Shown in pieces: positions 60-36,600 of a stretch of 64,000 nt of DNA. The stretch is taken from NCBI GenBank assembly GCA_034670405.1, contig JAXDDX010000001.1:4940501-5004500 (forward strand), in the 5' to 3' direction. Numbering within the stretch: the first letter of the stretch is position 1; each line of letters starts with the position of its first letter. This DNA is from Hoplostethus atlanticus (lineage: Eukaryota; Chordata; Actinopteri; Trachichthyiformes; Trachichthyidae). The notes under the pieces are model-generated. The model did no database searches. It saw only the letters and a program-made list of their open reading frames with translations, and had not been told where the DNA came from. A program made the position numbers and the translations under genes.

Positions 60-1121
60 CTATTCAGGCAGTATGCACAGAGGAGTAACAGTAGTCAGGC
101 CTTGCCCCACTGTCCTTCGTTTTCGTTGAGAGAACAACGAGGATAAATCCAAGCCTGGACACTGAGAAAGCAGCACAGCAAAGGTGCCATGAAACTCCCT
201 CCTGAACTGGCGGCCCATGAAGCAGCTGAACAGAGGGTTAATACAGGTGTTGAGGCTGCAGAGGCACATCTCCACGGTAAAGGCCACGTCTGTGGGCTGC
301 CAGGAAGCAGGGCTGTCCGGGTAGATTGCCCGCATCATGATGGCAGCGTTTCGGGTTATGTGGTACGGCAGGTAGAGCAGGGCAAACAGGATCAACACTG
401 CGCTCAGCACCCGGGTGAGACGCCGCTGCTTGCAGTGCGGCTGGGGCTGGGGGCGGCAGGTGCGGCGGCGCAGCTCCCGGACGCTGCGCAGGCAGCAGTA
501 GCAGATGAAAACCAGGGGGAACAGGAAGCCGGCGATGGAGCAGAAAACGGAATAGGGAAGGCTCTCCTCGGTCCCTTTCAGCAGTATGTATAGGGTACAG
601 ACGGTGCGGTTGCTTACAGGACATGACTGGATCAGAGTCATATTGGCAACAGGTATGCTGAGGACCAGTGTAAACGCCCAGACTGCCACACACAGTAGGC
701 AGGTCTGCCGACGGCCCAGTAGGGCCAGGGAGCGCAGCGGATGCACAATGGCGATGTAGCGGTCCACACTAATGCAGGTAACAAAGAATATGCTGAGGTA
801 AAAGTAGTTGTGGTAGAGCAGCCTTACAGCCGTGCATAAGGGCAGACCTAAACTCCAGTAGAGCTTGTCCAGATGGTACTGGATGAGGAAAGGCAGGGCC
901 AGCAGCCAGGAGGTGTCAGCCAGGGTCAGGTTGAAGAGGAGGACCGTGCTGCGGGTCCAGCGCTTGAGGCGGCGAGAGAAGATCCAGAGGGAGAACAGGT
1001 TGAGGGGCAGCCCCAAGATCAACACCACCAAGAAGAAGGCTGGCATCAAGTAGAGCTGCACCACCAGTATACCTTCCTGGCCCGGGCTGCCCAGGTCGCA
1101 GAAGGGTTTCTCTGGAGGCTG
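60..1121 (-). CDS. P2Y/succinate/oxoglutarate-type class A GPCR, terminal coding exon
   Basis: Seven-transmembrane class A receptor for a small extracellular ligand at the plasma membrane; the ligand cannot be told. Visible marks, in order: TM1 'GLPLNLFSLWIF', TM2 'LFNLTLADTSWLLALPF', Cys before TM3 pairing with a Cys in the second loop ('CPVSNRTVC'), the TM3 end 'SVDRYIAIVHPL' (DRY box), the TM6 motif 'YLPYHITRN' typical of P2Y-like receptors, and 'NTCINPLFSCF' in place of NPxxY in TM7. The tail is Ser/Arg-rich and ends in a TAG at 60-62. No ATG lies between the upstream in-frame stop (near 1152) and a Met only at the edge of TM1 (1042-1044). A pyrimidine-rich AG just before 1121 looks like a splice acceptor, so the start codon is probably in an upstream exon that I could not place. 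Family is sure; the paralogue (P2RY, OXGR1 or SUCNR1-like) is not. Confidence 0.8.
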   Translation of the reverse strand, partial: QPPEKPFCDLGSPGQEGILVVQLYLMPAFFLVVLILGLPLNLFSLWIFSRRLKRWTRSTVLLFNLTLADTSWLLALPFLIQYHLDKLYWSLGLPLCTAVRLLYHNYFYLSIFFVTCISVDRYIAIVHPLRSLALLGRRQTCLLCVAVWAFTLVLSIPVANMTLIQSCPVSNRTVCTLYILLKGTEESLPYSVFCSIAGFLFPLVFICYCCLRSVRELRRRTCRPQPQPHCKQRRLTRVLSAVLILFALLYLPYHITRNAAIMMRAIYPDSPASWQPTDVAFTVEMCLCSLNTCINPLFSCFMGRQFRREFHGTFAVLLSQCPGLDLSSLFSQRKRRTVGQGLTTVTPLCILPE

Positions 1122-3710
1122 TAGTGAGAGATCAGCAGTGAGTTGTCTGTTTCAAGATCATCAACCTGTAGCTTCTCTGTCGCTCCAAAACAGATTGCTT
1201 CAGTTTGACTGAAACAAAGCTTCATTTCAATTGTACACTGTAACTGGTTGGACGTCAACACACATAAAACGCATGATTGATATTATTTGCCTTTCCGAAG
1301 CTAACCTCTCAACCACACATGTAAACAATTGACTGAGTATTTTTTTATTGTTCCAAAAAATCTCGTTTGTCTTGCAAGAAGAAAATGTTTTAAAATCTGA
1401 AATAAAGCTTACTCAGTGAACCTCTCTAACCTACCTGAACTTGAGTGTTGCCCATGTCTTTGTTACAGTGGCTTAGCTGTGTGCCAAGTGAAACAACTAT
1501 GCCAGCAGCATATTTTGGTACAAAGCACACCCACCAGTGTGAACAAACACTGAATAACTATGTGCGCTCTCTCAGGCCATCTGTTATGTGAACAGTGACT
1601 TACATCTACTCAGCAAAGGAGCTGTGATAAGTAAAATATTTCATACTGGTGCTCCTTTTCCAACACTGGATAGCCTATTTACTGTTGATCCAAACATATC
1701 CAACAAACACACTTAATTTTATCTGGTACTTTATTCTGAATGAACACATTTAGATACAGGGCAGTGTATAAAATGATGGGGAAAAAATGAAACAAAACAT
1801 GTACAGTAAACAGCTTTAGGCTCTTTCTTAGGTATGGTAAAGATATAAAATAAATAGCAACACTGAAGCATAACAAAAGACAGAAAAAAATAAAGGCAAT
1901 AAGAAAAAGTACAGAATTTCAAGGAGATGTACAAAGAAAATCACAACTGAAGTAGTTGTAGTATTAAGGCATCAACAGGCGTTCGTTTAGTACAGGGCAC
2001 AGAAAGGCAAACTGGATCTGTCCAACAAAGCTCACCTGGTTGTGTAGTCACACCTATGTGCATCTCTTACCAACATAACAATTATCTGCCTGAGATCGAA
2101 GCATAGCCAGTCAGCTATTTTGAGGATTTAAATAAGAGAGACTTCTTACATATTTCTATGTAGGTAATAAACTTGAAAATGTCCTTCATATAATTTCAAA
2201 ACAGAACCACTGGTCTACAGATTTCACCATTAAACACGTTTCAACGTCTTTTCTCCCAACTTTTCTCCCAATGTAAGCTCAATATAAACAGGAAATCAGA
2301 GCAGGGAACCATTTCTCACATACAGTATATGATTACATCTGCAGTACAACCTTTGTTCCATTTAAATTAACACAATTACAATGAACACGATAACAATATT
2401 ATCACCTTCCTGCTTCAGAACACTGATTATATGTAGTGCCATGACAGCAATTAGACTGACATATTTATGTCTTGGTAGTTATGTTTCATTAAGTGCTTTG
2501 TGCAAAATAAAAAAAAGAATGTGTACCTTTCCTTCTCTACACAGACAAGCTTGAGAACTAAGCGACGGCTGATGTGCTTTGTGTGATGGAGCAAACATAC
2601 CCCAGTAGGTGGGGGCAGGCTTTCATTAGTGCCAACGTGTTGGTAAACAGAGGCACATTAAAAAGGGATCCCTTCACTCTCTCAGGGCTTTAGGCTCTCA
2701 TCTCCAGGAACAGGACTCACTGTCAACAGTCAACATGCACCAGCTGCTGCCCACTCACAGGCCCAAGCCATGAGTGCTGAAATACATATTGCTGAGTTCA
2801 CTGCTGCAGAATAACTGGCCATGGCAGGGCAAACCAAAACTTCAGACGATCTCCCCTTATGGAACACGAAAACACGAATGAGCAAAAAATAAATGATTTT
2901 GAAATGTGGTGATTTTTCTTCATAGAACGCGTCTTCACACGTCACCAGAGATTGGCCGTAGGAAACAAATAGCATCGTCACTGAATCATAGTAAAAGACT
3001 GAACGCAAAAGAGCTAACAAAATGTTTTGGTAAATTTGTGATACTAGCGACTGCTCACAATTGTTGCACACATACAATTGGTCTAAAAAAAATAATTAAC
3101 TTATGTGACACCAGAACCCTTGATACAACTGTATGAGAAATAGTATGAGAAATACTCAAAGCCTAAAATGAACATACTTCATTTTCCAAATTATATTAGT
3201 TGTCATTTAGATGAAATGTAGAACCAAGGATGAGTGTGTAATATATTAAGGCATTTAGTCTTTGGTTAGTTATAGTGGCACTTCAAATAAATAGTCCAGA
3301 GCAAGTTGCCTGATACAGTGTTACATAGCATTTCCGGCCACTTTTGATTATCCTCACTATCACAATTACAACATAGAGAGTGAAAGGTCATAATTATGAG
3401 AGATTTAAATTCAAGTGCATGGTGACTACAGCCACGGCATGCATGTAGATTCAACAGTCTCACCATGTTTTTTATATCTGTACATTCCCACGTTTGAGCA
3501 GAATAGTAGAGGAGGGATGATTGTGAATTGAGGAAGTCCATACCTCTTTAATGGAACTTGTGTCCCTATATTGCAAATGTAGGCACTACAGCAAAGTAAT
3601 GGTCGGTATCATAATACACAGGCAGGGTAGTGTCAAGGTAATCTTCGTCACCATGTCCTCCCATGTCCAACTGATATTACAGTGGCGCTCTGGGAGGAGA
3701 AGGACACGGG
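1122..3710. other. Intergenic region and probable ano5 3' UTR
   Basis: AT-rich sequence without a recognisable gene. The part next to 3711 should be the 3' untranslated region of ano5. A minus-strand AATAAA (TTTATT on the plus strand at 1730-1735) is one possible poly(A) signal and would give a UTR of about 2 kb; another lies at 1344-1349. The 5' exon of the GPCR to the left may also lie here. The short open frames have no protein character. Confidence 0.5.
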
Positions 3711-6700
3711 CTAGAGACACTCAGACAGCACCTCATGTTGGGGTAAGGACGGGTAGATCATGGGCATGCAGGTGCAGTCGCTGTGGTCGTTATGGCTGAG
3801 TTGGATCTTTAGTTTCTCCACCTCATAGTTGTGGAGATACTCTTGGACCAGGTAGCGCTCTCTCTTGAGTCGAGCCTTCACCTCAGATGGGACATCAGGA
3901 ATCATCCAGGCCACAAAGAACTTGACCATGAACACAACATGCTATGGAGGAAGAACACACAACAGGTTGGATGCAAACCAGTCTCTGTACTGTAAACTAG
4001 ACCAGCTAAACTAAAACGACCAGAAGAACTAACTCTGCATGGATTTATCACAGACTGTGGATGATGTGTGTGTGGGAGAGAGGAGTTACTATAAATGTAA
4101 CAAATGACTACTGTCCAAAGTATGAATTTGAGGTTCAACCAAGAAGTGTTGTTGGTGGTGGTGGAAATGCTGAGGCCCTGATTTACCTCCATGATAATGA
4201 TGAAAGCCAGCTTGGCAGCCAAGATGTGCCAGAACTGCATAGTGTGGGAGTATTGCTTCTCATGGCCTGGGGGGTAGCGGTAGTCACGATACCTACAAAG
4301 AACAAATATATCACAACTTTATATTCTGCCTTTAGGCTTTATATCCTTCTATCCTTCTCACAGACCACACTGTCTATAGGCACATGGTAGGGTAGACACA
4401 TTTGCAAGGGTTCCTGGGTTCCTGCGGATTTTTAAGGTTGGTGAAATTTGGTGAAAAGGACTCAAAGTCAGTATCTTTTGGGTATCGTAGGCCTCATGTT
4501 TTACTCAGGATCTTGCTAAGTCAAGAAATCATGGTGAAAAAAATCAAGTACTTTTAAGGCTGTGTATTCATTTTTAAAAAAAACCTTAAGGCCTTATTTT
4601 GTTTTTCTCAAATCCAGAAACTTTCAAGGATTTCCAAGGCCCGTGGGACGCCCGGCATTTCTCATATGGACACACAAACAGACCCCTACAACCCTATACA
4701 AAAACACACACCTGCAGGTAGTGATGGAGCTGTCAAACCAGGAAGGGTTCTCCCCATCCTCAGGCCTGTTGGCCTCAGGGATCGCAGTGATATTGAACAC
4801 TGACAGGCTGTTGTTTATGTAGCCTTCCATGGTGAATCCACCATCCGGCTGGTAGGCGTACATGTACACGAGTCGAGGGATCATATCAGAGGTGAAGGCC
4901 ACAATGAAAGCCTAAAATTAAAGAAAAGAAAGGGTGGGAGGGAAACACAAAGATACAATTACAATCAAATTCTAGCATTATGGGCCTGACATGGATCAAG
5001 CCAAGCGCTAAAGACTGTCCACAAAGTATCAAGAGTCAAGTCTAGCTTTTGCATTATTGAGTGGTAGAGAGACCTAATCAACCACTCACATTGGTGACGA
5101 CGGAGAGGACGGCCACCCCATTGAGGATTTCCTCCCAGGCTCCGATGCTGTGGGCCTTGGCTGCCACAGGCCGTCTGAACTGAGTGGTGAACTTCCAGGC
5201 ATCCACTCTAACCTCTATAATGTTGTTGAAGAGTGCCAGCAGGGGCGCCAGCGGGAAGGAGGCGACGAACAACGTGATGAAACCAAACTGGATCACTGTG
5301 AGGCAGAGAGATATGGGTGAGATACAGTAAGAGGGAAACGCTACCCTCTGTAGGATCTCAAGGGACACTGCAATACAAAGTTGTGGTAGTCACAGTCTGT
5401 CCGTCTGTCTATCTAGTATGTAGGTATGGAAGCTGTATTTAAAGCAAAACAAACCCTTAATTTGATGGAGTCTTTCAAAGTAAAAATTAGAAGGCCAAAA
5501 ATATTAACTTTACAGAGATGAAGTAGAGGTAACAACAGTATCTGTTCACTGCAGCAGATAGGATAGCTTATATGTACTTGTTATTCTGATCACCCTATAA
5601 CATTCCCTAGTTATGTTTAAAACTGAAATTGCATGAACTGGATTGTTATGCCCCTTGTAGTTTGTTACAGATGTCCTTAAATTCAACTAAGATGGTCTTG
5701 ACTACAGCCTTGCTTTCAAGTATCTATCTCTCCAAATCAATGTATGTAGTGAACTGTGTGTGTTTACCCATCTCCAGGTACTCGTGGAAGAGGCCTAGCT
5801 GGCCCATGTCCTGCAGGTCATGGTCCTGCTCCCAGCGGCTGTACAGACTCTCTGGATGGTTTCGGGCCTTCCTGCTGCCCCACCAGTTCATCAGCCACCT
5901 GTAGGCATTCAGCAGAGGGATTTCACATGATGTAACGCACCTTCTGGCAGCCATATTGGAGGCCCTCAGCTTTTGGGCAACCGCGTCTGTGAACAGCCGA
6001 TTGTGTTTCTAAACGTACTAATTGTTACTTTCTGTGCTGTTTTTGATGAGAACCGATCATTTTGCCACTAATAAATCTGATAATCTGAGTGATTTTGTGT
6101 TTAGATAATGTTAGCGTGTTAGCTAGCTGTGGAAGAGTTTCTTGTATCTTGTGATTCTATGTACCCTTAGATTCTAGTTAGTACGACATAATGAACTGTT
6201 TAGATGCCTTGTGTAACTTAGATCATGTGTGCATGTTTCATTGCTTTAGGCCTGTCCCGTGCCCTCCTTCCATGCACCTTCTTAGAAGCACTTTCACACA
6301 GAACAGATTGTTCAGACTAAACTATTAGCATGTACTTGTAGATGTTTAGAAACTAGCCCCTTTGTTATTCCTTTCCTTATAATCTCTGCTCATATCTACA
6401 TATCCTACCTTGTGCGTGTACCTCTCTCCTGAGCGCTCAGTTTTTTGTGTTAATAAATATACTCAAGTAATTCATGACTCGAATACTCTTTGTCAATATC
6501 TGAATTTATTCAACACTAGCAAATCATAGTATCTGGTTAGCTAACACTGTCTTGAAAACACATGATGGGAGATTTGTGCAATTGGAGACCAACTGCAAAG
6601 CCTCTATATAGTGTATGAGGAAGATGTGGAGGGTGGGTACTCACGGGACCAGAGCCTCCTGGATGTTACCCCACACCTGTTTACCAGTCATCACTATCAC

Positions 6701-9700
6701 CAGCTGGGTGGTCAGCTCAATCAGACAGCCACCAGGGTCACACTGAACAGACAGAGACAAAGAGAGAAACACAACCTTAACTCAGGCTCTAAGTAGAGTT
6801 ACCGGGCTTAATCTAGTATATTGTTATGTAGTAAGATATGGTACCTCCTCATTCCTCAGTTTGCTCCATTTGCCAAACATGTAAGCGTAATCTCCAGGAT
6901 AGCCAACAAACTTGCCCTTAAAGAAAGCCACGTAGAAACAGGAGGAGTAGTAGTTGACAAACTGGAAGAGGAACATCTTCACTGTCAATTTGTTCTCATA
7001 TTCCAGGTGAGTCTTGGGGATTTCTGTCACATAAAGAGAGTCAATAAAGCATATAGTTTCAAAGCATAGACTGAAATATGTAGATACACACATAGATATT
7101 TAGAAATCTCTGTAAATGCTGGGATATGCTTTCTCTCTCTCTCACCCATGTCAGTGATCCAAATAGCCACCCTCTCATACATGAGGTTGAGGATCATGAT
7201 GATGACAAAGTTGATGCAGGAGGCCGTGACAGAGGTGGCCAGCTGTGGCGTGATTAGGGAGCCCACCACCTGCAGGTTGTTGGTGGGACTGTCCTTCATG
7301 ATGCTGGCGAAGGCTGCATACACCGCCAGGCGGTATGCTATCACCCCAATGATGCAGGCAATGATCAATGACATCTTCAGGACAGACAACAGTAGGGACA
7401 CATGAAAGATGGCTACATGGCAAAGCACATCACAAGACGAATGTACAGTGAAAATACCACATCTGCTGCAAACGCAAACACAAACAGACACGGGTATGGA
7501 TTAAACAAGCTTAATTATTGCCAACATACAGGAAACACAAAAAATAAGTCTCATGCTTGCAGAATTCACACATGCCCCATGAGCAGAAATCTAATATGAT
7601 CTGCCAATTATTCTCTTTCACATCTAAACTGTGATATTTTTAGAGGTTATATAGACCCAAGTATGCAGTATTACTAATAAGAATGTTCTGTGCTAAATAA
7701 TCATATAAAAGGGTTTGTTGATCATGATGATGTAAATTCTGGTTAAATGATAGTAGTGATGATGATGAAGAGCAGGATGGAAAAGAGAAAAGCTAGAGAG
7801 TGGAGATGAAGATGAAGGTGTATCAAAGACACTATGCTCACCCAGAATAGGACGGTGGCTCCAGACAGGCATGTGCGAGCACACTTGCTTGTTATGGGTA
7901 AGTAAGGCTCCATTTCCTACACAGTAACCAAGCAAAGCACAGATAAGGGAGTCAGTGACCCTGGTTATATCCTGAAAAGGCTCTGAACGGAGAGGTTCCC
8001 TTAATTACGACTGGCTTCAGACAAGAGGTAGAGCTAGGAAGGCCAATCAGAGCAATTTGCTAGATGATGCATGGGACTCAGATTGAAATGCCCCCACACA
8101 GTCTCCTGGTGAAGCCATGCTCTTGCAATAAACTCTTCAAGATACTAATCCACCAGGCAAAATGCTGCAGGTACAGATGGAACCTCGTGCCTCTGAGTCT
8201 TTCCAGAAATGTCTATGTTATCCACACAAGCTTGAACACATCAAATCCTCTTCCTCAGCAAACTGGCATTCCATGTTAAGTGCCACCCTTACCCACAGCA
8301 CCACGGTGGCCCAGCACAGTAACACTTTCCCCACTAGATCAGCTGCAGTCCTCTCAAGAACCCACTCCATCTCCTACAGACAGGTGGGGTGTGGTGGAGG
8401 GTCAGGGCAAAGTTAGAGCCCGCTGTCTATTCATATCATAAGTCTACGTCTATCATTGCACTGAAACTTTTTCAGTGACAATTATTTTGAGTTGATTGGA
8501 GAGTTGTTTGTTCACTCATAGAGCTGATATGGCTCTGGGCCGGCTGTTCAAAACTATCTAACTGATGGTATGGGCTTCTATAAACACTGCCATGTTGATT
8601 TTTAAATTACTCTTAAAGCTAATTTACACCGTGTACCCATTAATGCACCCAATGCATTAGTGTACCCAATGGACTACTTTATCAAAAACAAGTGGGCTGG
8701 TTTCACAAACCTAGACAAAGAGTGTTCACTCAAAACAGCTGTTTAGTCCAGGAGATGTATCCAACATCCAGAGGCATGTAGTACTTCAAATCTTTAGTGT
8801 AACAATTACAGTTCCTACCATATATCTTCCTACATTAAAGAGGCTACAGAGACTTCTAGTGTTATACATTAGAAAGCCATGAGCACACAAACACCTGAGT
8901 AATGCGGTTCAGCCTGCGGTTGGTGCACTTGGTCTCATACTCTGGCCGAAGCTGCAGCTGCTGCTGCTCTTCCTCAAAGTCGACTAGATCCCACTCATAC
9001 GCCAGACGGGCCTGCCGCCGCTTCCAGAACTCCAGGAACAGGGTCACTGCAGAGGCATACAACATGTTACAGCAGTCATGGTAAAAGCATGGTAAAGAAT
9101 ATGGTAGAGTATGATGGTAAACTGATGACTTTGTTTAATATGAGTTATAAAGTCTGTTATAACCTTTTGTTGTAGGTTTGGTGACTTAACATTCTCTTTT
9201 ATTTATTTTTAAAGCACTGACTGGTAAGCTGCCACTATACCTGTCCTCACTTTTGAATTTTAGAGACATAGAACACCATACTAGACTACAATCACATATA
9301 AGGCTGAACGTACCGCGGTGTAACACCAATGCAGGAAAGTCTGCCTTTAGCTTTTATGCACCTGAGAAGTGGAACAGGCTGCAGGACTCCCTAAAGCTGG
9401 ACCAACTTGTCTCTCTGGAGAGGTTCAAGGTTCTGGTCGAAGGTGTGCTCCATGTCGACTGTACATGTTTCTCATAGTACATGTTTTTCATAGTCTTGTC
9501 TTTTATTCTTGGATCTTGTGACTTTGTTTTGTGATTTTATCTTGTTTTGTTGTAACATAGTTCTATTTTGTATGTGTTACATTGTAATCAGGGCGGCATT
9601 GTAAAAGAGAGCTCGCTCTCAATTGTCTTCCCTGAATAAATAAAGGTTTCAATTCAATTCAATTCAATTCAATTCAATTCAATTCAATTCAATTCAATCA

Positions 9701-12700
9701 GACTGGGTAGCTTAGTGAAAATACCCAGTAAAGTTACTTAGTTTATTGCACCTTATCAAGAACTCCTTGTCTGATCTCATCATATTGGTATGGTATATGG
9801 TATGTGTTTGTGGTTTTACTGTTTTTTCATTATGTCCATTTAATGTGTTTTTATTGTAAACCGTCCTGCAAAACCCATTTTCCCTTTTGGGAAAGAAAAG
9901 TTTAAATTGAATTGAACTGAAATTGAAGGGAGTCCTCAGAGTCCTCAGAGTGTGCAAGTATGAAAGTTTGGTGTGGACAGTCTTGTATTTTTCTTAAAGA
10001 TGGAGGGAATAGCAGCACTTTAAAATCAATGGTTGCCAGCTGACCATATATTGCAGGGTTTAGTAGCTCCCACTAGGTGGTGCTCTGGATTAGAAAATAC
10101 AAAATCCATGTAATAGACATTTTTACTCACCCCAAATCCCCATGAATATGGCAAAGAACACCGTTCCAACATTGTCAAATAGGTGTGATTGCTGAAAGAG
10201 GAATATATTGAATAATACTGAAAAAGCCATTGCAGACATTTAGTAGAAATCATCCTATTAATGCCATGTGCCAAGGTGTCTTACCCATGATGAGTTGCAT
10301 GTTGAGTTGAGTTTCCAGTAGCCACATTTCTTGTCACACAGTGGGCACATGACAATTCTGCCTCCGATGTCCTCACTACATATTTCTTTACTAAAGGGGG
10401 AAAAGGGGATTTTTCATGAAAATATCAATGAAATGAGTGACATACTGATAATATGAAGGCAGCTTAACATCAGAAGATGTTTCATTACAAATATGAAGGC
10501 ATATGAAAGACCTACAAAACAGGCTTAACATTGGGTTAAAATCTAGCATAGCATTCTTGGCAAGACTCACCTCCACTCGTTATCATTGTAGGTGAGTAGT
10601 CCATAGATGAAACAGATGACTCCTACTACTGCAGCAAAGAACAGCATCTCAGTGTAGAAGCCCAGCCACGCAAAATAAACACCTATTTTCTCTCCATAAT
10701 ACTTCCTGTTTGAGGCAAAAACAACACAATTCTTAGTGTAAATTCTTCTGCCAGGTTGATGTGTAAATGTGTGATTTGTTTTGAGGTCCTACCTTATAAG
10801 GTTGAGGGGCTGTTCCTTGAAGAAACACAAGAATCTGGCCCAGTATTTGTAGAGGCTGTATCTGTCACTTTCGCAGTTAGGATCCCTTGATCTTGTCCAG
10901 TATCTGGACTGCACACACAGAGAGGACACAATTTGTCACTGCATTCACTGCATTATTTTGATGTGATTCATCCTTGCCATGCTATGCCCTCAGACAGGAT
11001 ATTACTGTTTGAAGCCACAGAGTGCACATTCCATTGCGGACCCCATGGCCTGGTGACAAAGGAGCGGTGTATTCCAAAAGGTTTGCTAAAAGAGCCTTAC
11101 ATCGTGCAGAGGGAAGGCAGAAGTGTAGGTGCCATTGTTGAGTAACCTCTTGATTCCCTTTTTGTCTTTATCCCCACATTCCTCCTTGTAGTATGGAATG
11201 CGGGCCAGGATGTAATAGACCTGGGCAGAGAGAGGAACGGGAGGATGCAATATCTTAATGTTTAGAAGCAGAAAACATTGAGAGCAGTTTTGAAACACGT
11301 TTTTACATCACATGGGATGTAACCTTTTTGCATTTATTAGCAGTTAAATAAGTGAAATAAGTTTCCTTACTATCCTGTTGCGGGTAGAGGCAGGGAAGAA
11401 CGTCTCTTTGTCATCGATAAGGAAGAAGTCGGACTTGCTCTTGTTGAAGGGGGCTGTAAAGTAGTCTGGCTCGGGGTGCATAACCTGGTCAGGCAGACGA
11501 AACGGGGTGGAGAGCCAGTTCATGGGCATCTCTTCGTTGTTGGGGATGTCGATGGCCTTGAAGGGCACCTTGATCTTCAGCACATCTGCGTAGGTGGCCA
11601 GGACCTCCCATGGAGCGTGGATCTTGAGGAAATATGTCTTTCCATCATCCGACTCCTGAGTGAGAGTGAGGAAAGTGGGTGAGAGAGTACATTAAAACAA
11701 TATGCTTATGGTCATGATTAAGGTGCTTATCACAGTTTCTATCTAAAGCCAATTTCATCATCTTCTGTCTACAAGGGATATAAAGAGGAACTGTAGCATT
11801 CCTTTTTTGCTGTGTCTTGAAGATGCTTCTGCTCTGATTCACTGTTTTAACAGTAAAAACTGCCAGTTATTTTTTTCTTTGTGAAAACAAGAAGTGTTTC
11901 AAAACAGCCTGGAAACAGATATCTCATTGCAGGCCATTGCATTCCCTATTACAATTAGACATAATCAGATCAAAAACCAGGGGCCTCTTACCGATTTATC
12001 TTCTGTCTCCAGCTCCAGGCCTGCTCTCTCTAGATTGGCCTCATACTCCCTTCTCCGCTCCTGTGAAAAAGGAAAAGGAAAATAAGATCTAGCCATCAGG
12101 ATATATTGATGAGTTTAATTTGCCTATGATAAATTCAAACTCACTTGATATGGCCGACATTTATTGCATAACATATTTGGATGACACACATAGGAATATG
12201 GCCTCCTGTTTGCTGTTCGTCATACATTGTGGAAAGAATGAGTAAGTTCCTGACCATGCCAGGGGTATGGGTGTTGACTCACTGACAAGGCTGTTTCAGA
12301 GAGTGATGTGTGAGTGATATGTGTCTGCGCTGACAAACACAGCAGGCAGGCCTCATAGCCATGGAGCAGTGACATCCAGGTGTGAAGACTAACAGCCTGG
12401 TATCAAACACCGGGCCATTCAGCACGCCACAGTTGACTTATGCTCAGTATGAAATACTAGAGAGCTACACAAATAAAGCCGATTTACCTGAGAAGGTAGA
12501 GCCACAAGAGGTCGATATCAATGTAGAAGTGACAATACCTTGAGAGGTTTATGGCACAAGCTGAGAATAACAGTTTATCTAACATTATCAGCGTTTGTGG
12601 TATTCAGGGTATGCTGTCTCACATGAGCTATGCTGATAGCCTGAAAGTACCAGCTGTCTTATTGCTTAAATCAAGTACAGTGCAAGTGCAAAGTGGAAAC

Positions 12701-14950
12701 TTGAGCTGCAGTAAGCTTATTGCATACTGCATATAACTTATTGCACTCCTACTTTAGCTCTGGTTATTATCCTAGATGCTTGTTTGGGGAGGAGATGCAC
12801 TTACGATTTCTGGTGACTAGTAGTTCACTTGCCTACTGTTGGATAAAACCGTTAACTAAAAATTAAGAGTTCAAGTCAAGTCGTGATTTACTTGAGTATA
12901 TTTATTTGCAATAGCTGAGTGCTCAGGAGAGATCCACACACAGTATAGGGTATACAGATCTCTAAAGAAAGAGCAGTTGGGAGTGAGGTTTCAGAGACAC
13001 AAGGCCATTTGTCAAGTCAAAACAACACCTAGATAGATAATAATACGCCTAAACATTAGCAGTTCCTTCAGAAACAAAACCAAATGATGGAGAACAGTCA
13101 AACAAACAGAGGGAATCATAGTAAATGGTTGACCTAAAGAATGCTAAGAGGGGTGCATACATTTTTCTACCACACCTACCTACGTTGAATGCACTTATTG
13201 CCACTTATAAGTCCGCAATGTAATGTAAATACGGACATCTGCTTGAGGTCAGTCAAATAGGAAAATATATAATATATATATATATATAGGTGGTCATCCA
13301 TAAGGTGTTTCTTACCTGTTTCCTCTCACCATCTTTATCGTCCACATACGACAGGACAAAATCTATCCTGCGCTTTCCGTCGCGGAAGAACACAGAGTCT
13401 TTACTCTGCTGCTGTTTGTCAATCTGTGAGGAGATGGATGGAAGAGAGATCACAACATGCATCCATTTGAAACACAAGCAGAGATATTCACAGCAGCTCA
13501 AGGAGTAGTTGCATGCATTCACCACAGCAGACCAGACAGTCAAATACCTGTGTCAGTGGCTAATGGCAAAACCCAAAGCTGTTGTTGAACAACGCCAACA
13601 GCATCCACAACAAATCAGTCATAACTGTGTGTTTCAATAGAAGAACATACAATCATGAAAGTATTTCCACTGCAAACACAAATGACATGCTGATGGCAGG
13701 ACAAGGCTTATATGCTGCCTATCTCTCCTCAACATGTTATATTGATCAGAACTGAGGTTCAAGAAGGAATCCCAAGCATTTTGGTAGAAAGCTGAACAGG
13801 TTGTGTCACTGAATCAGATCCAGAGAGATATCAATATCAAGTATTGTGATTTTACGAGCTTATTAAACACAAACTCAGATTATCTGTCATAGCAACGACA
13901 AAACAGGATGTGGAACAGTTCAGTACGATTACACTTCATGACAATCATAGACCACATTTTCTACACCGCAGCGGTCAGGTCAACCCTCCAACCTTATTTT
14001 ACTTTGTTTATACTTATGCCATCCAGTGTTTCCCCTATATGTATTCTACCATGGCAGGGCGGTAAGACCATTACCCACCATGCTAACAAATGTTTGCAAA
14101 ATCATTTTATTTTTACTCTAAATGGTCTCTTTAAGTAAAGAGGCAGGCGCTATATTTATTTTTCATATAGCAGTAACTTGATCTTAAATGTATTCTGTGT
14201 CATATTTCAAGTAATCTTCTGACTTAATAACTGGTTTTGAGGTGAAATCTCTCAGAAGGATGGTCCCGGGTCCCCCTGCATACTGTAACACCAGTTTGCG
14301 CTTCCCACCACCACAGCTGGAAAAAAAACAATATAGGGGAAACACTGCTGCAAGCCATATAGGTAGGAACCTGTATTTATCGTCAGTTAGCAGCTGCACT
14401 GACTCAGGCATGTGCATCAGCTAATGCTGTCCCCTGCGAAGGCTACAGGGAAATACTCACACAGGAATGCTTTAAGAGAGACAGGAAGACATGACCGTTT
14501 GCTCTCATTGCTCCTACAGCTGTTCAGAGAGCTATAAATAACTACGGGTACCAGGCACCAGAATATCTTGGTTCACCTCGGTACCATAGCCACCTAGACA
14601 GGACTGCACTAGAATTAGTACAACAAACACTACATCTACACTACACTACACCTACTGGATGTAGTTCAGCAGTTCGCATAGAGCATGCTTGCCCTGTCCT
14701 TCAGTACAACACCGTGGGGGAAGGGAAGGGAAGAAGAGTGCTTTACCTCCATGGCCCACTCCCTTAATGGTTATGATGCATCAGAAGAAAGTCTGGCCGT
14801 CTGACAGAGCAAAATTGCCTTTCTCCAGGGAGCGTAGTCGAGCCCTCAACACACTGCTTCTCTTACTCTAACTCCCCTGATCTGCCAGCCAGAGGGGCTC
14901 CATCCAGTCCACTCAATTCCCAGAACAAGCCCTCACTCGCTCAGACATCC

Positions 14951-25191: not shown

Positions 25192-28100
25192 CTTTTAGCA
25201 GAAGATTTTCTTATTCCTGTTGTTTGAATGAACTTGATTGTCTAAATGACACTGTAAGCCCAAGCTATTGCGAACTATCACATTTGCAAAATAGCTCTAT
25301 CTCTATAACTTATCATACTAATACTGTATCAAGCAAACTGGGTTGTAAAGTGATAAGTCTCTTTGTTACAGAATAAGGATTGTGCACTTCATCCTGAATC
25401 ACACCCCTATCCATACAGGAGGTGAGACTTATTTACACCACCACTGCTCCCCGGGTAATGGGACTCCTAATGTTACATATTCTGCCTCACGTCTGTTAAT
25501 CTCCCCAGAGGATCTGCGGACTCTCATGAAGAAGAAGGTTTTTGAGGCAAAGTTCTGCTTGCATGAGGTAAATTCAGTATTTATATTCAGTAGTGTTGAT
25601 AGTTTTGTAGCTTTTTGCTAACATTTGACTGTGAAATTATATAGTCTGATATCCTATTGAATATCTAAAAGTGAAATAGTATGAGACCCAAATCACCGTT
25701 CTCCATTGATTAAATGATAAGAACATATGAATGCCAGCCATTGTTTTCTGCTGTTTCTCCATGTGGATGGAGAAACTCCCATGCTAAAAATAGTGACATG
25801 ATTATCTACTCTCTCTCTCGATACTCTCTTTCTTTCTCACACTTCCACTTAAGTGTTTTGTTATTTTTAAGAACCATTATGATTGTGGTGTGAAACCTGG
25901 CAAGGGCTATGCAAAACAATACGTCACTAGTAAAAGAGTATGTGTTTACAGATGCGTTATCAGTACACTGAGTCATCAAATGGTGGGTGAATGTGTGTGT
26001 CTGTGCGTGTGTGCATCTGTGCACATACAGTATACACATGTGTTCTGCCCACCTGCAGCATCTTCATTATCACCCCATGGGAATGGAAATCATTCCAGAG
26101 AAAGAAATGTTCAGGACACTGAAATGTATACATTTCAAAAGGTTATTCTAACTATGAGGCGTCCTTGAACAGATATTTGTAAATGCTCAGTCCATCCCAG
26201 TTTGATATGCATTTGTTATGCATTGTCAATATGTTATATTTTTGCATTGTAAAATTCTGTCTCACGCCTGTATGATACATCAATCAATTCTCAGGTTTAG
26301 CTTAATACAGCTCTGCTCTATGTGTATTCCTCTATATTCCTGTGTGTGCTTCTGCTTTCAGAAAAAGAAACAGAGAGAACTGAGGCAGAGCTGGGCACGC
26401 TGGACAGCCTGTCTCCAAGGGCAACCCATAACTGCTGTCAGGTTAGGACTACACCACAACAGCCTCTTTATTATTCTGCTGTTTTGCTGTTTTTACAGTT
26501 GCAGCTATTGCAGTGCAATTGTTTTCCATGTCATCCTACTGTGGAGTAGGTTCAAGTATGAACAAGGCAACAGTAAAAATGTCAACTCCCACACACGATG
26601 CAGGCATTGTTTGGCCTAATCATTGAAAATTATGTTACTCAATGCTTGCACAGTGTAGAGTATGATCTTTGTATGTGGATTCATTTATGTGCTGTCATGC
26701 GTCATATCTCAGACACTTCTGGGAAAGAGAAGGGATGACAGGCCAGATTTGAATCCAGGACATTGAGCTTACTTGGTATTCACCCAGCGAACCGAGCCAC
26801 CAGGACGCTGCCAGTGTAATGTTTTAATGCCAAAATGCATCATCCTTCCAAGTTTGGTCCAAATTGGACCAGTGGTGTCAATGTGAACACATTTGAGTTA
26901 CATACCTTTAGACCTTTAATTAAAGCGCCCCCATTAGGCCAATCAGTGTCATTTGTAAGGATTTGTGTAGCAAGTTTCATGTGAATTGCACCTAGAATGT
27001 AGCAGTTATGGCCTTTCAAAGAACATAGTACCAAGAACATACTACCAAAGTGCATCATCCCTCCATGTTTTGTCAAAATTGATTCAGTGGTGTCTGAGAT
27101 GTCACCTGATATTATGTTTGATGGATGGATCATCGTGTGTGTGTGTGTGTGTGTGTCAGGAACTACTTTGGGGAGAAGGTGGCCTTGTACTACCTGTGGT
27201 TGGGCTGGTACACATACCTACTCATCCCAGCTGCTTTCATCGGGCTCATTGTCTTCCTTTATGGCCTTGCCTTCTTCAACAGCTCCCCCCTCATGTAAGT
27301 GTTCCCACAACTCCGCAGTGGCCGATTGCAACAGTGCGTTTATGCTGTAATAACTAAACTGTTGATTGTTTTGTAGAAAGGAGGTTTGCGAGGCTAACAT
27401 AGCCATGTGCCCCCTTTGTGACAAGAGATGCAAAGTGTGGCAGCTCTCTGACACCTGCATGTATGCCAAGGTACACCCATGCATTCACCAGTAGGGAAGC
27501 AAACAGTGTACTTGTCTGCTGGTGCTCACTGTAGTCTTGTCTATTTACAGGTGAGCCTACTGTTTGACAATAACGGCACAGTGCTCTTTGCTATGTTCAT
27601 GGCAGTGTGGGGTGAGTTCAGAGTGTCAGTCGTAGGTACATGTATGCACTGTAATGTATCTAAAGGACAATAGCAGTGTTTTAACATGAAGGTTCGATGT
27701 CATTCTTGTCTTGAGTTAGCATTTCAGATATTTCAGAATGTATTTCTATATCTGATATCTATTAGTATTGTTTATTATTGATTCTTGGTCTTTAAATGCA
27801 GTTTTTATAACACATTTAAAACCCATGGAATCACCAAATTTGCTGAAAATGTCATGTTAACCCCTGATGTGTCCCTCATTTCTATGAAAGGTTGTTACTG
27901 CTTTGAGGCAGCTATTTAGACGCAATGGAGCAACTTTTCAGGAAAACGTTGACACTGATTAGAATGGCCTTTTAATATGTGGTGTTTTCTGTGGATTTGT
28001 TAAATGTTAGGGTGTGTTTTCAGATACACTGGAGCCTATGGCAATAAAAAAATATTGCAAAGCAGTTGCCAAAAAAAAAAAAAATATGGAAAAAGTACCA

Positions 28101-31100
28101 CTTACCTCAAAGGACCTGCATGTCCAAAGCATTGTCACTGTCTGTCAGTGCTGGTATTGTCCCAGCAGGGCGACATCAGCTCATCTAAATTCCTGCTTTT
28201 CACAGCAACACTGTTTTTGGAGTTCTGGAAGAGGCACAGGGCTTCCTATGTATGTGAATGGAAGGTGACTGACTGGTGTGAGGAGGAGGTATGCTCACGC
28301 AGAAACATTTCTTGTTTTTATGTTTTTTATATATATATTAATATCATCAAATGCATAACTGTGTTTTACTTTACATATACTTTCAGGAGGAATTGATCCT
28401 GGAAATTGTGAACAGTGCAAACTGTACACCCAAAAAATACAAGCACTCCTATCTGCGCAGCACTTTGGTTTTGATCTGTGTCACTATGATGGTGGGCGAC
28501 TTCTCAGTAAACTAAAAGTCTAATGATGTATGTGAAGTTACTGAGAAAAGTAGTTGGAAATGTCTAGTTGTGGGTCAAAAATAATCAGTGAGAGCTGTAT
28601 TTATAGGTTAAATGTATTAAATATGTGTGTGTGCGTGTGTTTGTCCCCAGATACTGGTGATCATTGGCCTGACTCTTGCCTTGGTGGTGTTCAGAGTTAT
28701 GGCAGCAGTGATGTTGGCTGAGGGATCATGGGAATTCCTGAGTCTCCACTCCAACACTGGAGCGATGATGCTGGGGGCTGTCCTCCACTACATCATCATC
28801 ACTATCATGACACGGGTATAGGGAATCTCTAAATGTGTGTCTAGATTTCATTTTGGTATCATTCTGGGACTCTGACCGTGTCTCCCTCTTTGCAGATCAA
28901 CAGGATTGTAGCCATGAAGCTCTGTGAAATAGGTGTGTTTCCCTTTTCTGTTTATTTCCATTGTATAGGTTATCAAGTTAAATTGGACATAATAATATCC
29001 CACTTGTATTGTTATGACTCTAAGCTGACTTAAACATTAGCTTTTAAAGGTCCTGTACTAGTTTTCATGATTTTGTTCTGTCTCGGGATAAGAAAAATGT
29101 TCTTCCCTCACATCGCAAATAAATGTAGTTTAGAGGGTATTTATTGGATGAATTTGAAGTCCTCACAGGCAGAACAGACACACCACTGAACCCTAATTGG
29201 CCAACAACACCAGCTCCTTTTAGCAATGCTTTAGTGAGGGGGTGCGTTGACTGGAGTTAGTCTGAGACTGCCTGTAGCAAAGGGTGTATTTTCAGATTTA
29301 ACCAAATTTTGATATCTACATTAAATATCTTTGAACGTATGTGTATATAAATAGAGGAAAGTTGACTTCCTCTATTAGGGCTCCTTTAAGCTCCTTTAAA
29401 CTGTGTGAGATTGTGCCATCCCTTGGTCAAATAGTGAATTATATGTACATTAACATGAGGTTATGCTGTCTTTACCAGAGGAAACAAGATCGTTTGCTGC
29501 TACAGAGAAAAGTTTCACTGTCAAGATGTTCACCTTCCAGTTCTTCACCTATTTCTCCTCACTCTTCTACGTAGCCTTTTTTCTCGGCAGGTAAGAACTT
29601 GTGGACCAAGTGTCCTAACCTGAAAGACCCAGTGTCCTAACCTGAAGGACCCAGTGTCCTTAACCTGAAGGACCCAGTGTCCTTAACCTGAAAGACCCAG
29701 TGTCCTAACTTGAAGGTCTTGGGCTTGTTAGAGTAATAATGGTATGTTTGTAACACACTTGACAGGATAAATGGTCATCCTGGTGGCTATGTGCGAATTG
29801 CACGGAAATGGAGGCTGGAAGAAGTGAGTAAACAGATATACATTCATTTAGAATAAGTTAATGTACATTTTTGTTTGCACATGAACATATTTTTGTAGAA
29901 GTCTCTAATTCCAAAAGTCTTGTTCTCCCCGTATAGTGTCACCCTAGTGGTTGTCTCACAGACCTATTCATCCAAATGGCCATCATAATGGTACTCAAAC
30001 AAACCATCAGCAATGTCTTTGAGTTCACTGGCCCGTAAGTGTACATCAACTCTGCAATTATGTGTTTATATACTGTATACAGTATGTATGTAATCCACTT
30101 TCCCAGCATGGGGTCCAGGCCTGTCAACGCTGTTTCTTGTCTCTATCAGCTGGTTCAGCGGGTGGTTGAAGAGGAAGAGAACCCAGAAGCTGCAGAGAAA
30201 ATGTGCTCACTGCTACCTCAAAGAGGAGTCGGAGACCAAAGAGGGAGCAGTACTGTGTGATAACTGCAAGCTTCGAGACTGGCTCAGCAACTACCATCTT
30301 AATGATGTGGACTCCTTCAGCCTGTTCAATGAGTTTCTGGAGATGGGTATGTACTGTGCAGAATGCATGTACAGTGATAACATCAGGGTAAGGTGTAATT
30401 TACTGAGAGAACAAATAAACGCTGGAATCGTTTTGGCACTTAATGTTTTTCTTTGTTGTCTTCCTAGTGATCCAGTTCAGTTTTACCACCATATTTGTGG
30501 CAGCGTTTCCCCTGGCTCCTCTGCTAGCCCTCATTAATAACATCATTGAGATACGCTTGGATGCCATTAAGATGGTCACTCTGGAACGCAGATTGGTGCC
30601 CAAGAAAACCAATGATATTGGTGAGGGTCATTGGTGAACTAATAAGATCTGATTGGCTAACTTTTATTTGGCATTACACCGGTAAAGTAACTGTAATGTA
30701 ACGGTCACTGTTGTTTACTGTATATTGGTAAAATACCCCAGACATCGTTTTTCCTCAGGTGTGTGGACAGACGTGTTGGAGGCTATCGGTGTCCTAGCTG
30801 TCATTGCTAATGGGCTGGTCATTGGTGTGTCCTCGGACTTCATCCCTCGCCTGGTGTACCGTTATCACTATGGCCCATGTGCCAATGGCACAGTGTCAGA
30901 TATTGAGTGAGACTGTACATTCTGACAGCTTTGATTTGAAGATTTTGTCACGTCTTTGTGATCTGCCATGTTCTGCTTCCTAAGTGCCACACTCAGTTTC
31001 AATGAATTCTTGTTCTTTTCCAGCTGCATGGTTGGCTATATCAATAACACACTATCCATTGCGCGAGTGGATGACAACAACGATATTTCACCTGACCAGA

Positions 31101-32311
31101 TGGAGACTCATAGTGGACTGAAACTCTCTTACTGCAGGTTTAAATCATTCTTCTTTTTTTACCCTATGTGTGGCCTTTAGCTGAACTGGCACATGATCCT
31201 GACATCCATGATGAACTCCTGAGGGTTGGGAGCAACCAAACAGAATAATATGATATAGTTTAATTGGTAAAAACAGAATAGCAAGTTCTGATGCAGCTCA
31301 CAGCCTGTGGAAACTACTGATCAGTGTTCATGGTGCACTCTGGTATCTTGCCTATTGTGTAATTAGGTATTTCTTACTAAATATGGGAGGGATCACCACA
31401 GCTAGAGCCAGGAATCAGCCCCAAATCATCGGATCTCTGTGAACCTTTAGGGAAAGAAGGATGAAGAATGATGAGGGAGATGAAGCCTGTCCATTCCTGT
31501 GTTCTGTTCTCTGTTCACAGCTATAAAGACTACAGGAGCAATGAGGACTACAGTCTCACCCCGCAGTTCTGGCTAATTCTGGCTGTGCGCTTTGCATTTG
31601 TCATCTTGTTTGAGGTAGGCGTTAAACCAACTTGACCAAGTGAGAAAGCTCCTTTTCTTAAATTGATTTCTACATTAATGTTAATGTTTTTTATCTCTGC
31701 TTGCAGCACGTTGTTGTCATATGCAAATTCATTGCAGCCTGGTTTATCCCGAGCGCTCCCATGCAGGTCAAGAACCACAGACTCTTTGATAAACTCAACA
31801 GACTAAAGGAAGAACTCAGGTGGGTCTTGGATAGAACGTCGTCAGACTGGTGTGTCAGGTTATCAAACAAATGATAGATCAGCTGTTTCCAACACGTCTG
31901 CCCTGAAAAACTGGTGTGCATTGAGAGTTTGCTCAAACATCACAACATGTACAACAAAACAAATTATATTAAAATTATATTTCCCTTTAGTAGATTTTGT
32001 CAGTCAAATTCTGTCTGTGGTTATGGACTGAAAGCAGAAAAAAATAAAAATGTGCTCTGACAGAAAGCAGATGAGTCACTTCACTGCAGATACCCAGTGA
32101 GGGCAATGTTAGTGGTTGACTGTTCCCTGAACTCATAGGTATGCATACTAAAAAACTAAAAATGTTCTACCAAAGTGAAATTTTATTTAATTTTCATTTT
32201 GGCATTGTGCAGCATCTCTTTGTGTGTTGTCTCTCGTTAAGTGTGTTGTGATAGCAAAAAGGCTACAACTAATAACTTGCTTCTAATTCTCTTAGGTCAT
32301 TTGAAGGGTGA
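23567..32311 (+). CDS. ano9: Anoctamin-9 (TMEM16J), complete coding region
   Basis: TMEM16-family membrane protein, epithelial in mammals and reported as a scramblase/cation channel. Coding exons: 23567-23587, 24428-24502, 24603-24725, 24905-25041, 25372-25421, 25509-25567, 25872-25937, 26362-26441, 27160-27294, 27377-27470, 27551-27611, 28206-28288, 28387-28491, 28651-28815, 28896-28932, 29479-29590, 29766-29823, 29937-30034, 30150-30346, 30468-30620, 30759-30906, 31024-31137, 31521-31614, 31707-31819, 32296-32311. All phases agree and sum to 797 residues plus TGA (human 782). Marks: '[18 protein letters not shown]', '[20 protein letters not shown]', '[13 protein letters not shown]', '[20 protein letters not shown]', '[14 protein letters not shown]', '[12 protein letters not shown]', '[14 protein letters not shown]'; the RRLVP.K..DIG and HY.PC stretches favour ANO9 over other anoctamins. 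The 66-nt exon 25872-25937 and the 7-residue first exon are the least certain. The C-terminus is shorter than in human. Confidence 0.93.
24230..24343 (+). mobile_element. Retroposon 3' tail leading into ATCT repeat
   Basis: GCAATTTCTGGGACAATAAA followed directly by (ATCT)n is the standard 3' end of fish LINE or SINE copies. The body upstream is too diverged to classify. Confidence 0.45.
24343..24420. repeat. (ATCT)n microsatellite abutting the ano9 exon 2 acceptor
   Basis: About 19.5 uninterrupted tetranucleotide units. Only seven bases (ending in TAG) separate it from ano9 coding exon 2 at 24428. Confidence 0.95.
26712..26812 (-). mobile_element. tRNA-derived SINE fragment
   Basis: On the minus strand it has TGGTGGCTCGGTTCGCTGGG (A-box-like), then GGATTCAAATC (B box) and a pyrimidine-rich CATCCCTTCTCTTTCCC body. 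It lies in the ano9 intron 26442-27159; the tail is lost. Confidence 0.5.
29609..29718. repeat. 22-23 bp minisatellite in an ano9 intron
   Basis: Five tandem units of AGTGTCCTAACCTGAAGGAC plus CC, with T/C, A/G and one-base length variants. It starts 18 bases after the donor of exon 29479-29590 and fills most of a 175-base intron. Confidence 0.9.
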
Positions 32312-33662: not shown

Positions 33663-36600
33663 ATGACTATGATTTTGATCGCTTTTATACTGGCGTGCAC
33701 CAGTTTATGCGACCGGACCTTCCTGGACATTGCTGACGGTAAGGATACACAGAAGTACACCTACATTGTGGGCTTTCATTTACTTAACGTTAGATAGGAC
33801 AGGCATACACTTGGTTGAGAAATACGACCTTTCTAATACATAGCATTTGGTCTTATCATATTATCATTCATTTTTAATTGTTTTACGTAAGGGAAACAGT
33901 CAAATGTCGAGGATGTTGAATGGGTAGTTCACTCAGGCCGGCTGTACAGTAGACCTATGTGACAGTGAGGGAAGGGAAATGCCCCGTCATGATGAACTTA
34001 ATGACTTAGGTTCATCTTATTAATTATGGCTTATAATCTATATACACCAGTCAACGCACATCTGGTCAGTGCCGACAGGGCTACAGTGTCGGTGCCCCGC
34101 AGTCACATGAGCCTCACTGCCTGGCAACATGGGATCCGACCTGGACTTCGCACCCGGATGTGGTAAAACGTCAAGTGGAGCGGGCAAAACAATAGAGCAA
34201 CCACAGATGAGCAGTTTTGCAAGTTCCTCCAGGTTTCGTTCACGGGTCATAATTGGGCGCATGCGTTGAATGTCTTGAGAAACCGGTCCAATCTTTGACA
34301 GCTTTGACTGAGATGTATCCATGAGGTCCCCACAGAGAATTAAATAAGCTACGTGTGGTGCTTATTATGAATAGGGGTCTGTTACCCTCAACACACTGGA
34401 TGCATATAAACTGCACACTTGTTTACACTGAACATGTCCTCCAACAGCGATGCAGATTCAGTGTTTTTTTCCACTTACTCAACAAAAGACCCATTTGCAC
34501 ATTCTCAGCCAGGGGGAGTAAACAGGTTCACCTTCATGCGCCATTAGCTTTAATGGCACAGTAATGTTGAAAACAGAGCCTAGCTCCACAGACTATGCAA
34601 AGTGTTAGGTATAGCTCAAAAGGATCTTCACTAATGAAAAGCTATTTCCAGCAATATGCTCCAGTAATATGCATGCACTGAATCACACGAGACAATGAAG
34701 GCTTCATTCATTCTGCCACTTTCCCTCTTCCCATTTGTAGCTCAGTGTGTGGATGAGCAGAGATTTAAGGAGCAGGTGCTCTACGTGGGGCAGGGGGTTC
34801 CATATCGGCTGAATTGCCCCCTAGAGCCTGCCTTGCTGCAGAGCTCCAAGCAGCTCCAGCTGACCTGGCTGAAGGACTGTCTTCAGCTGCCTGGGCCTTC
34901 TCCCTCCAGTCCTGCCCAGGCCCCGCTCACTCCGGCCTTCTTGCAATTCCCCCTCCTCAGCCTCAAGGACCAGGGGAATTACACCTGTGTGGTCAGGGAC
35001 AACGGCACAGCCTCTTTCACTGTGCGTCTCACTATTAAGGGTGAGTGCTCTCAATTTCAAACTGCCCACCTGTTGTAAACCACGATAAAGGAGTAAGAAA
35101 ATAATTTGCAGCTTCTTACTGGCATCTAATAACATGTCCTCAAGGTGGCTCTCTCAGCAAGCTGTTGTTTTGGGTTTTGAGGGAAACGTAGACTTCATAT
35201 GGGGAGAAGGGGCTAGTGAAATGGAATTCACTACATTTGCAACGAGGCATTGGGTTTCAGTGTGCCTTCCGGCAACTATGTGGCTGTATCAGGCTTACAA
35301 CAGTGGGCAGTGCACATGAAGGCCTCTATTATCTTTAGCTCTTGTAATGACTAAGGATAGAGGTGGTTTGTCTTTTCACAGAGTCCCAGTGTTCCAAGGC
35401 CCCACAATATAAGCCTAACGGGGACCTAACTAGGCTCTGGGGGAATCTGGGCTCCACCGTGAAACTGAACTGCACCGTTCTCCTTCGCTGGGACCCAAGT
35501 GAGGAGCCGTGTGACACCACCTTGCGTTGGAGTAAAGATGGCAACTCTCTCACAAACCACACCCTTTACCCACAGAATACATCCTCATGGTGCATTGAAG
35601 CTATTATTTTATTATTTTATATTGTTCAATGTTATATTACATCAAATCAAGTATTTCAGAGGCAGGACCATGGGGATAAGATCAAGCTTTCCATCCCTTA
35701 TCCCAGGTCTCCCAGTGCCGGCCAGCTGATGGTGAGCAATCTGCTGGAGGTCACCCTCAGTGAGCAGGTAGACTTTGGGCTCTACAGCTGCACAGTGAGG
35801 AACACCTCTTCTGACTTCAGCCTGCAGAATACATGTAAGACCACTTAGGATGCTTACCACACACACACACACACACACACACTCAGTCCTGTATTGTGTA
35901 ACTCTAGTCTAATGTGTCAGCACCAGTAAAGCAGGTCAGATTTCTTGAGCACCCGTTCTACTTGGCAAAATAAAGTAGATCTGATTATGATTAATGTGGA
36001 ACTGAACTAAATGTAAAGGATGAATTCCACTCTCACTCTTCTATCAAGAGCATGACTGAATCATTTTCAGTGTTCAACTGCAAGGACACTGTTGTTCAGA
36101 TCTACTCAAACTGGCCACATGCTGTCATGCGTGTTGGTTGATTTTGTGTTTGTGTGTGATCAGACCACCCCAGCCACACAGCTGCTGTTATTGCAGCCAT
36201 CGTCCTCCTCCTTCTCCTGGCCGTAGCTGCTGCTGTGTACTCCAAGTGTCATCTGAACATCAAACTCTGGTACAGAAACTCCTATGGAGACTATGAACTC
36301 AGTGGTGAGTATGTGGTATAGTGAAGGTCAATGTACTCAAGAGTATTTAAGCCGCTGTAAAACTCACAGTATCTTTCCCTCTCCATTTCTTCAGATGGCA
36401 AACTGTATGATGCCTACATCTCATATGTGAACAATGAGCATGACAGGAAGTTTGTCAACTTTATTCTCAAACCTCACTTGGAGAGTAAAAATGGACACAA
36501 GCTGCACCTCAATGACAATGACATCCTACCTGGCTCAGGTAGCCTCAAATGCCTGTTTTTCTCTGTGATCTTCTCTTACATACAGTAATTTACAAGGAAT

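Follow-up and report, generated by a model that had tools for sequence, protein, structure and literature searches.

A probable tandem-duplicated alternative exon ahead of TM3 in one of the two ano5 genes of Hoplostethus atlanticus

Tandem-duplicated mutually exclusive exons are known from vertebrate genes such as OGDH (exons 4a and 4b) and U2AF1 (exons Ab and 3), where, in the excerpts available of PMC7969005 and PMC5224494, adjacent alternative exons supply two versions of one protein segment, much as the two exons described below, A and B, would do in an ano5 gene. The excerpt on OGDH ascribes exclusion to branch points located 25-41 nt from the upstream donor, closer than the roughly 50 nt proposed as a steric threshold (PMC7969005). 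Among the anoctamins, ANO1 (TMEM16A) resembles ano5 with exon A in that it is alternatively spliced in the intracellular loop between TM2 and TM3: the accessible parts of PMC3170211 and PMC8835819 describe exons 13 (4 amino acids) and 15 (26 amino acids) as optional insertions in this first intracellular loop that influence gating. A further mouse exon, 13b, adds 40 hydrophobic residues to the same loop and was found in mouse heart and not detected in human heart; being intronic, in frame and hydrophobic, it is like A (PMC3170211, in part). All three are inserts, whereas A is proposed to replace B (PMC3170211, PMC8835819, both in part), and the main text of PMC3170211, as far as available, calls none of these exons a duplicate and lacks the stem "duplicat". 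From our own reading of a primer, ANO1 exon 16 appears to hold the lead-in to TM3. The sequence-only reading of the DNA studied here was aware of no described ANO5 form with such an exon pair. Among the matches listed, in a search that reached a minority of subscription papers, no such form was described, and one phrase match (PMC12592175, seen in part) proved to be a mere reference to CaV1.2.

The locus lies in a 64,000-nt stretch of the Hoplostethus atlanticus genome (the window), which is part of contig C1 in a genome of 633 Mb. The features needed in what follows, all on the minus strand, are these.

3714..13423, minus strand: span of the recognised ano5 exons, the outermost of them placed by eye
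8895..9046, minus strand: upstream exon, ending ...RLNRITQ, with donor CAG/gtgttt and boundaries that fit the open chain
8412..8416, minus strand: CTAAC candidate branch point, its A 40 nt 5' of exon A, within a 49-nt AG-free tract
8293..8373, minus strand: exon A, 81 nt, 27 residues, phase 0-0, open, bounded as tag/GAG...TGG/gtaagg
7917..8292, minus strand: A-B intron, 376 nt, with a 44-nt AG-free tract before B
7842..7916, minus strand: exon B, 75 nt, 25 residues, phase 0-0, open, bounded as tag/GAA...TGG/gtgagc
7146..7374, minus strand: downstream exon, starting in phase 0 with ATG (aag/ATG at 7374)

Sixteen modelled internal ano5 exons (12060 to 4187, minus strand, B included) join into a single open chain, and the Pfam Anoctamin domain (PF04547) scores 106.6 bits across the ano5 segment against a cut-off of 28. 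The nearest solved relative that we located for this gene is ANO6/TMEM16F. On the anoctamin topology, the upstream exon would lie in the TM2-TM3 loop, and the downstream exon would encode most of TM3, the TM3-TM4 loop and the start of TM4; the A/B segment, on that topology and on the alignment with TMEM16F, would sit between the TM2-TM3 loop and TM3. Searching the genome with the downstream exon returned at least seven places, namely the window gene, genes on C14 and C26 and four distant anoctamins, a search that is incomplete, as the ano9-like gene of the same window was missing from its matches. Viral contigs, considered as a source of downstream-exon relatives, gave 22 pattern matches, 0 of them confirmed. 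Identity of the downstream exon is 86% with the C14 copy and 55% with the C26 gene, and the upstream exon matches the C14 copy at 92% over 50 aa. Exon B of the C26 gene has a score of 91 against mouse ANO6 and of 31 against window exon B, so the C26 gene looks like ano6 and the window gene, which is probably ano5, does not. The C14 gene is probably a second ano5 copy of the same fish; its matched exons are open in the alignments, and it is adjoined by reading frames that we take to be VGLUT2-like and GAS2-like, for comparison with the human ANO5 neighborhood. Upstream of it, a 311-codon Tc1/mariner transposase-like frame was seen by eye on the plus strand (stretch L009, 6292 onward).

The window also holds another anoctamin gene, which is ano9-like and more distant, at 27158-31850 on the plus strand. 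Its stretches that match ano5 exons begin as follows.

27158, 27378, 27554, 28208, 29505, 29937, 30280, 30467, 30818, 31522 and 31707, plus strand: ano9-like stretches matching ano5 exons

By eye, two immunoglobulin-like reading frames, perhaps sigirr, follow at 34668-35848 (plus strand), a plakophilin-3-like gene with armadillo-like repeats at 42600-48316 (minus strand) and tetraspanin-like reading frames at 56700-58775 (minus strand); a single-exon class A receptor-like frame at 60-1151 (minus strand) follows ano5 downstream as the next large frame. The order of the ano9-like gene and of the sigirr-like and plakophilin-3-like frames near it resembles that of human 11p15.5.

Exons A and B are both present, continue the reading frame, carry good splice sites and are more alike than chance would have it in the comparisons below; the coordinates, lengths, phases and splice dinucleotides first read from the sequence all held on inspection. 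They are adjacent, of near-equal length (81/75 nt), in the same phase and more similar than shuffled sequence, as tandem duplicates are. Splice signals are present for both, as scored with approximate weights: the acceptor score of exon A is reached by 3.8% of all AG in the window and its donor score by 1.3% of GT, the corresponding values for exon B being 2.5% and 1.5%. Of the three donors scored, that of the upstream exon at 8895 is the weakest (reached by 6.9% of window GT). Besides the CTAAC, exon A has a second branch-point candidate in a CTGAC at 29 nt. The GC content of exon A (0.568) is higher than that of every one of 1,124 81-nt windows in three neighboring introns. Its codon score of 0.239 was equalled or exceeded by none of the 27 sense candidates and 4 of the 75 antisense ones in ano5 introns, and by 12 of 263 candidates in other DNA (the ano9-like gene excluded), but 4 of 15 true exons also fall under it, and this codon test is weak because exon B itself, at 0.029, scores far below exon A.

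Both exons open with EME and close with ATV..W, which the alignment bears out, and 10 of the 25 aligned residues are identical, both ends included; at 4 of these the codons differ synonymously. Of 2,000 and 40,000 dinucleotide shuffles of the 978-nt intron, 1 and 2 respectively attained the pair's global BLOSUM62 score of 29. When 16 internal exons were scanned against 17 introns (272 pairings), 95 pairings had at least one candidate exon, and A-B was the sole outlier among them, at 0.21 of the self score against -0.009 for the runner-up. A set of 1,948 candidate exons, drawn from 187,402 bases counting both strands, held nothing above 29 except the two B exons and fragments overlapping them; the best unrelated candidate scored 17. 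In the DNA, the two exons are alike only along two short stretches close to their ends (13 of 14 and 16 of 18 bases), neither of which is significant alone, since each has an E value of 0.20. Exon A was chosen from a large scan, which carries an unquantified look-elsewhere cost. As the shuffles, the lone position among 95 pairings and the exon-like splice sites and GC content all point the same way, the resemblance of A to B is probably more than chance, and the suggestion that A is a duplicated exon probably holds.

Exon B is the canonical exon by comparison with its relatives, because it recurs in the C14 ano5 (88% identical) and, in diverged form, in ano6. The homologous exon of ano6 on C26 has 78 nt, stands in the same position and phase as B and encodes VKEKVPYTACGRCIRVSLGIGTVFFW, and B aligns to TMEM16F as well. 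Exon A was found only at the window ano5 among the places examined. Unlike the window gene, ano6 has no A-like exon in the two introns flanking its B homologue (240 and about 283 nt), and none was found in those of the C14 ano5 (99 and 151 nt); the C14 introns held 0 and 1 and the ano6 introns 6 and 0 candidate exons, none of which exceeded a score of -15 with B or -20 with A. Wider searches with A returned matches that we judge to be chance: a 9-residue antisense match in 29.7 kb around the C14 ano5 (tblastn, E 0.049), a 12-residue match at the C terminus of the ano9-like gene (31812-31847) in 50 kb of the window (E 0.009), and a best E of 0.031 in stretches of five other anoctamin loci, where each of the four distant anoctamins was covered by tblastn over one 9,901-base stretch. 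The ano9-like exon in the position of B (28388 onward, read by eye) bears no resemblance to A by eye. Against solved structures, exon A alone had no match up to E 10. Nor does A look like a dispersed repeat, as a 601-nt search, with very common words skipped, matched only itself and exon B of the C14 copy. In pairwise scores, A-B reaches 29, A with the fish ano6 exon 11, B with the fish ano6 exon 31 and B with its C14 counterpart 125. With 29 against 31, the distance between A and B is about that between ano5 and ano6 at the same exon, which seems odd for a functional copy unless it is very old or changes fast. Either A would be old and lost from the C14 copy and ano6, or it would have been born in the window copy and be fast-changing.

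The sequence-only reading had called the two exons probably mutually exclusive, which is unsupported so far: transcripts with A, B, both or neither would all preserve the frame, and neither sterics nor pairing offered a reason for exclusion. Inclusion of both exons and skipping of both stay in frame because each exon is a multiple of three and in phase 0-0. As the AG-free tract before B spans 44 nt within a 376-nt intron, the branch point of B is expected near its acceptor, far from the donor of A, and no steric exclusion is expected. This differs from OGDH, as the window ano5 is predicted to have no branch point close to the donor of A, and the alternative use of A and B is here a prediction from sequence alone. 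Pairing between introns, across the three introns, showed no excess over shuffles; docking/selector pairing was rejected, as the native duplexes had weaker energies than did 93%, 99% and 82% of the shuffles (100 in each case), by a crude measure. The built-in reasons sought at A/B (a frame shift if both are included, a short intron, a distant branch point or competing stems) were thus not found there. Such a reason is common in exons of this kind yet optional, since proteins can enforce the choice, and a protein-controlled choice between A and B is possible. Between 8894 and 7375, TGCATG and ACTAAC have 0 occurrences, and short splicing-factor words (TAAC, YCAY and those of PTB, MBNL and CELF) occur 8 to 37 times, a count made without a control.

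For the protein, choosing A would alter the cytosolic entry to TM3. The lead-in encoded by A is longer than that of B by two residues, has a net charge of -2 versus 0 and is without the PYLP and K-C-A-R pieces of B. The last 15 residues have a Kyte-Doolittle value of 1.97 in A, 0.75 in B, 1.03 in the B exon of C14 and 1.34 in mouse ANO6. With A replacing B, the Pfam Anoctamin score is 91.7 bits, compared to 106.6 with B, 90.0 with both and 81.2 with both skipped. Six shuffled versions of A gave 84.1-88.1, all 6 below the real A, a small gain of 3.6-7.6 bits. In the comparison with TMEM16F, the best chain of the A version reached 143.2 bits, lower than the 149.6 of the B version. A family review, as far as available, locates an element that modulates the calcium sensitivity of TMEM16A/B in the TM2-TM3 loop (PMC8835819), and as this is the same loop, an effect of A on gating is plausible.

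We lean, at barely better than even confidence, to the view that A is a tandem duplicate of B, either old or evolving fast, that is kept as a real alternative coding exon in one of the two ano5 copies. Exon A would have been duplicated from B in tandem and then diverged; the spliceosome would pick A in place of B in the mRNA, replacement being more usual than joining; the channel or scramblase would thereby gain a different cytosolic lead-in and different first turns of TM3, longer by two residues, more hydrophobic and with a charge of -2 instead of 0; and the A version may then change gating or the passage of lipids or ions. That A might instead be a relic, copied from B, now rarely or never spliced in and decaying while B alone makes the protein, would fit both the lack of an A-like exon next to B in the C14 copy and ano6 and an A-B divergence far above that between the ano5 B exons (29 vs 125). 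A neutral copy, however, should often lose its frame, its multiple-of-three length or a splice site, and A retains all of these together with its 49-nt AG-free tract, the CTAAC and an exon-like GC content, and we consider decay unlikely.

Chance could produce an unrelated intron stretch, possibly a young or cryptic exon, that is accidentally B-like, and the identity comes to merely 10 residues in a 27-residue peptide, the DNA similarity to two short stretches with E 0.20 each, from a first-stage scan that picks the best of many introns. We regard an accident as improbable given that 2 of 40,000 shuffles reached the score, that A-B was the sole outlier of 95 and that the splice-site and GC signals are separate from the similarity. 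Much the same low probability attaches to A being included together with B, so that 27 residues are inserted before TM3 in the manner of ANO1 exon 15 with its 26 residues. A and B together are in frame, nothing located forbids joining 8293 to 7916, and ANO1 offers precedents in the optional loop insertions of exons 13 and 15 (PMC3170211, PMC8835819, in part) and the 40 residues added by mouse 13b (PMC3170211, in part). The hydrophobic end of A, however, mimics the start of TM3 and would, if placed before B, lie in the cytosolic loop, and the Pfam score with both exons (90.0) shows no gain over that with A alone (91.7).

Overall, exon A of the window ano5 is a probable tandem-duplicated alternative exon, an instance of a known phenomenon at a new locus. 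More tentatively, we suggest a splice switch in this one teleost ano5 copy that would exchange a neutral cytosolic entry to TM3 for an acidic one. If true, the switch would give a scramblase or channel isoform that is beyond the reach of the other ano5 copy, of ano6 and possibly of mammals, at TM3, which on this splice-switch reading forms one wall of the ion/lipid groove. ANO5 mutations give rise to diseases of muscle and bone, and the way in which the ion and lipid activities of the protein are set is little understood. If the TM3 entry is replaced naturally here, nature would have supplied an experiment on the control of these activities, and this would also be a case of gene copies diverging, with one keeping an extra exon. 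Should A be unused, it would serve as a small example of how a duplicated exon can persist.
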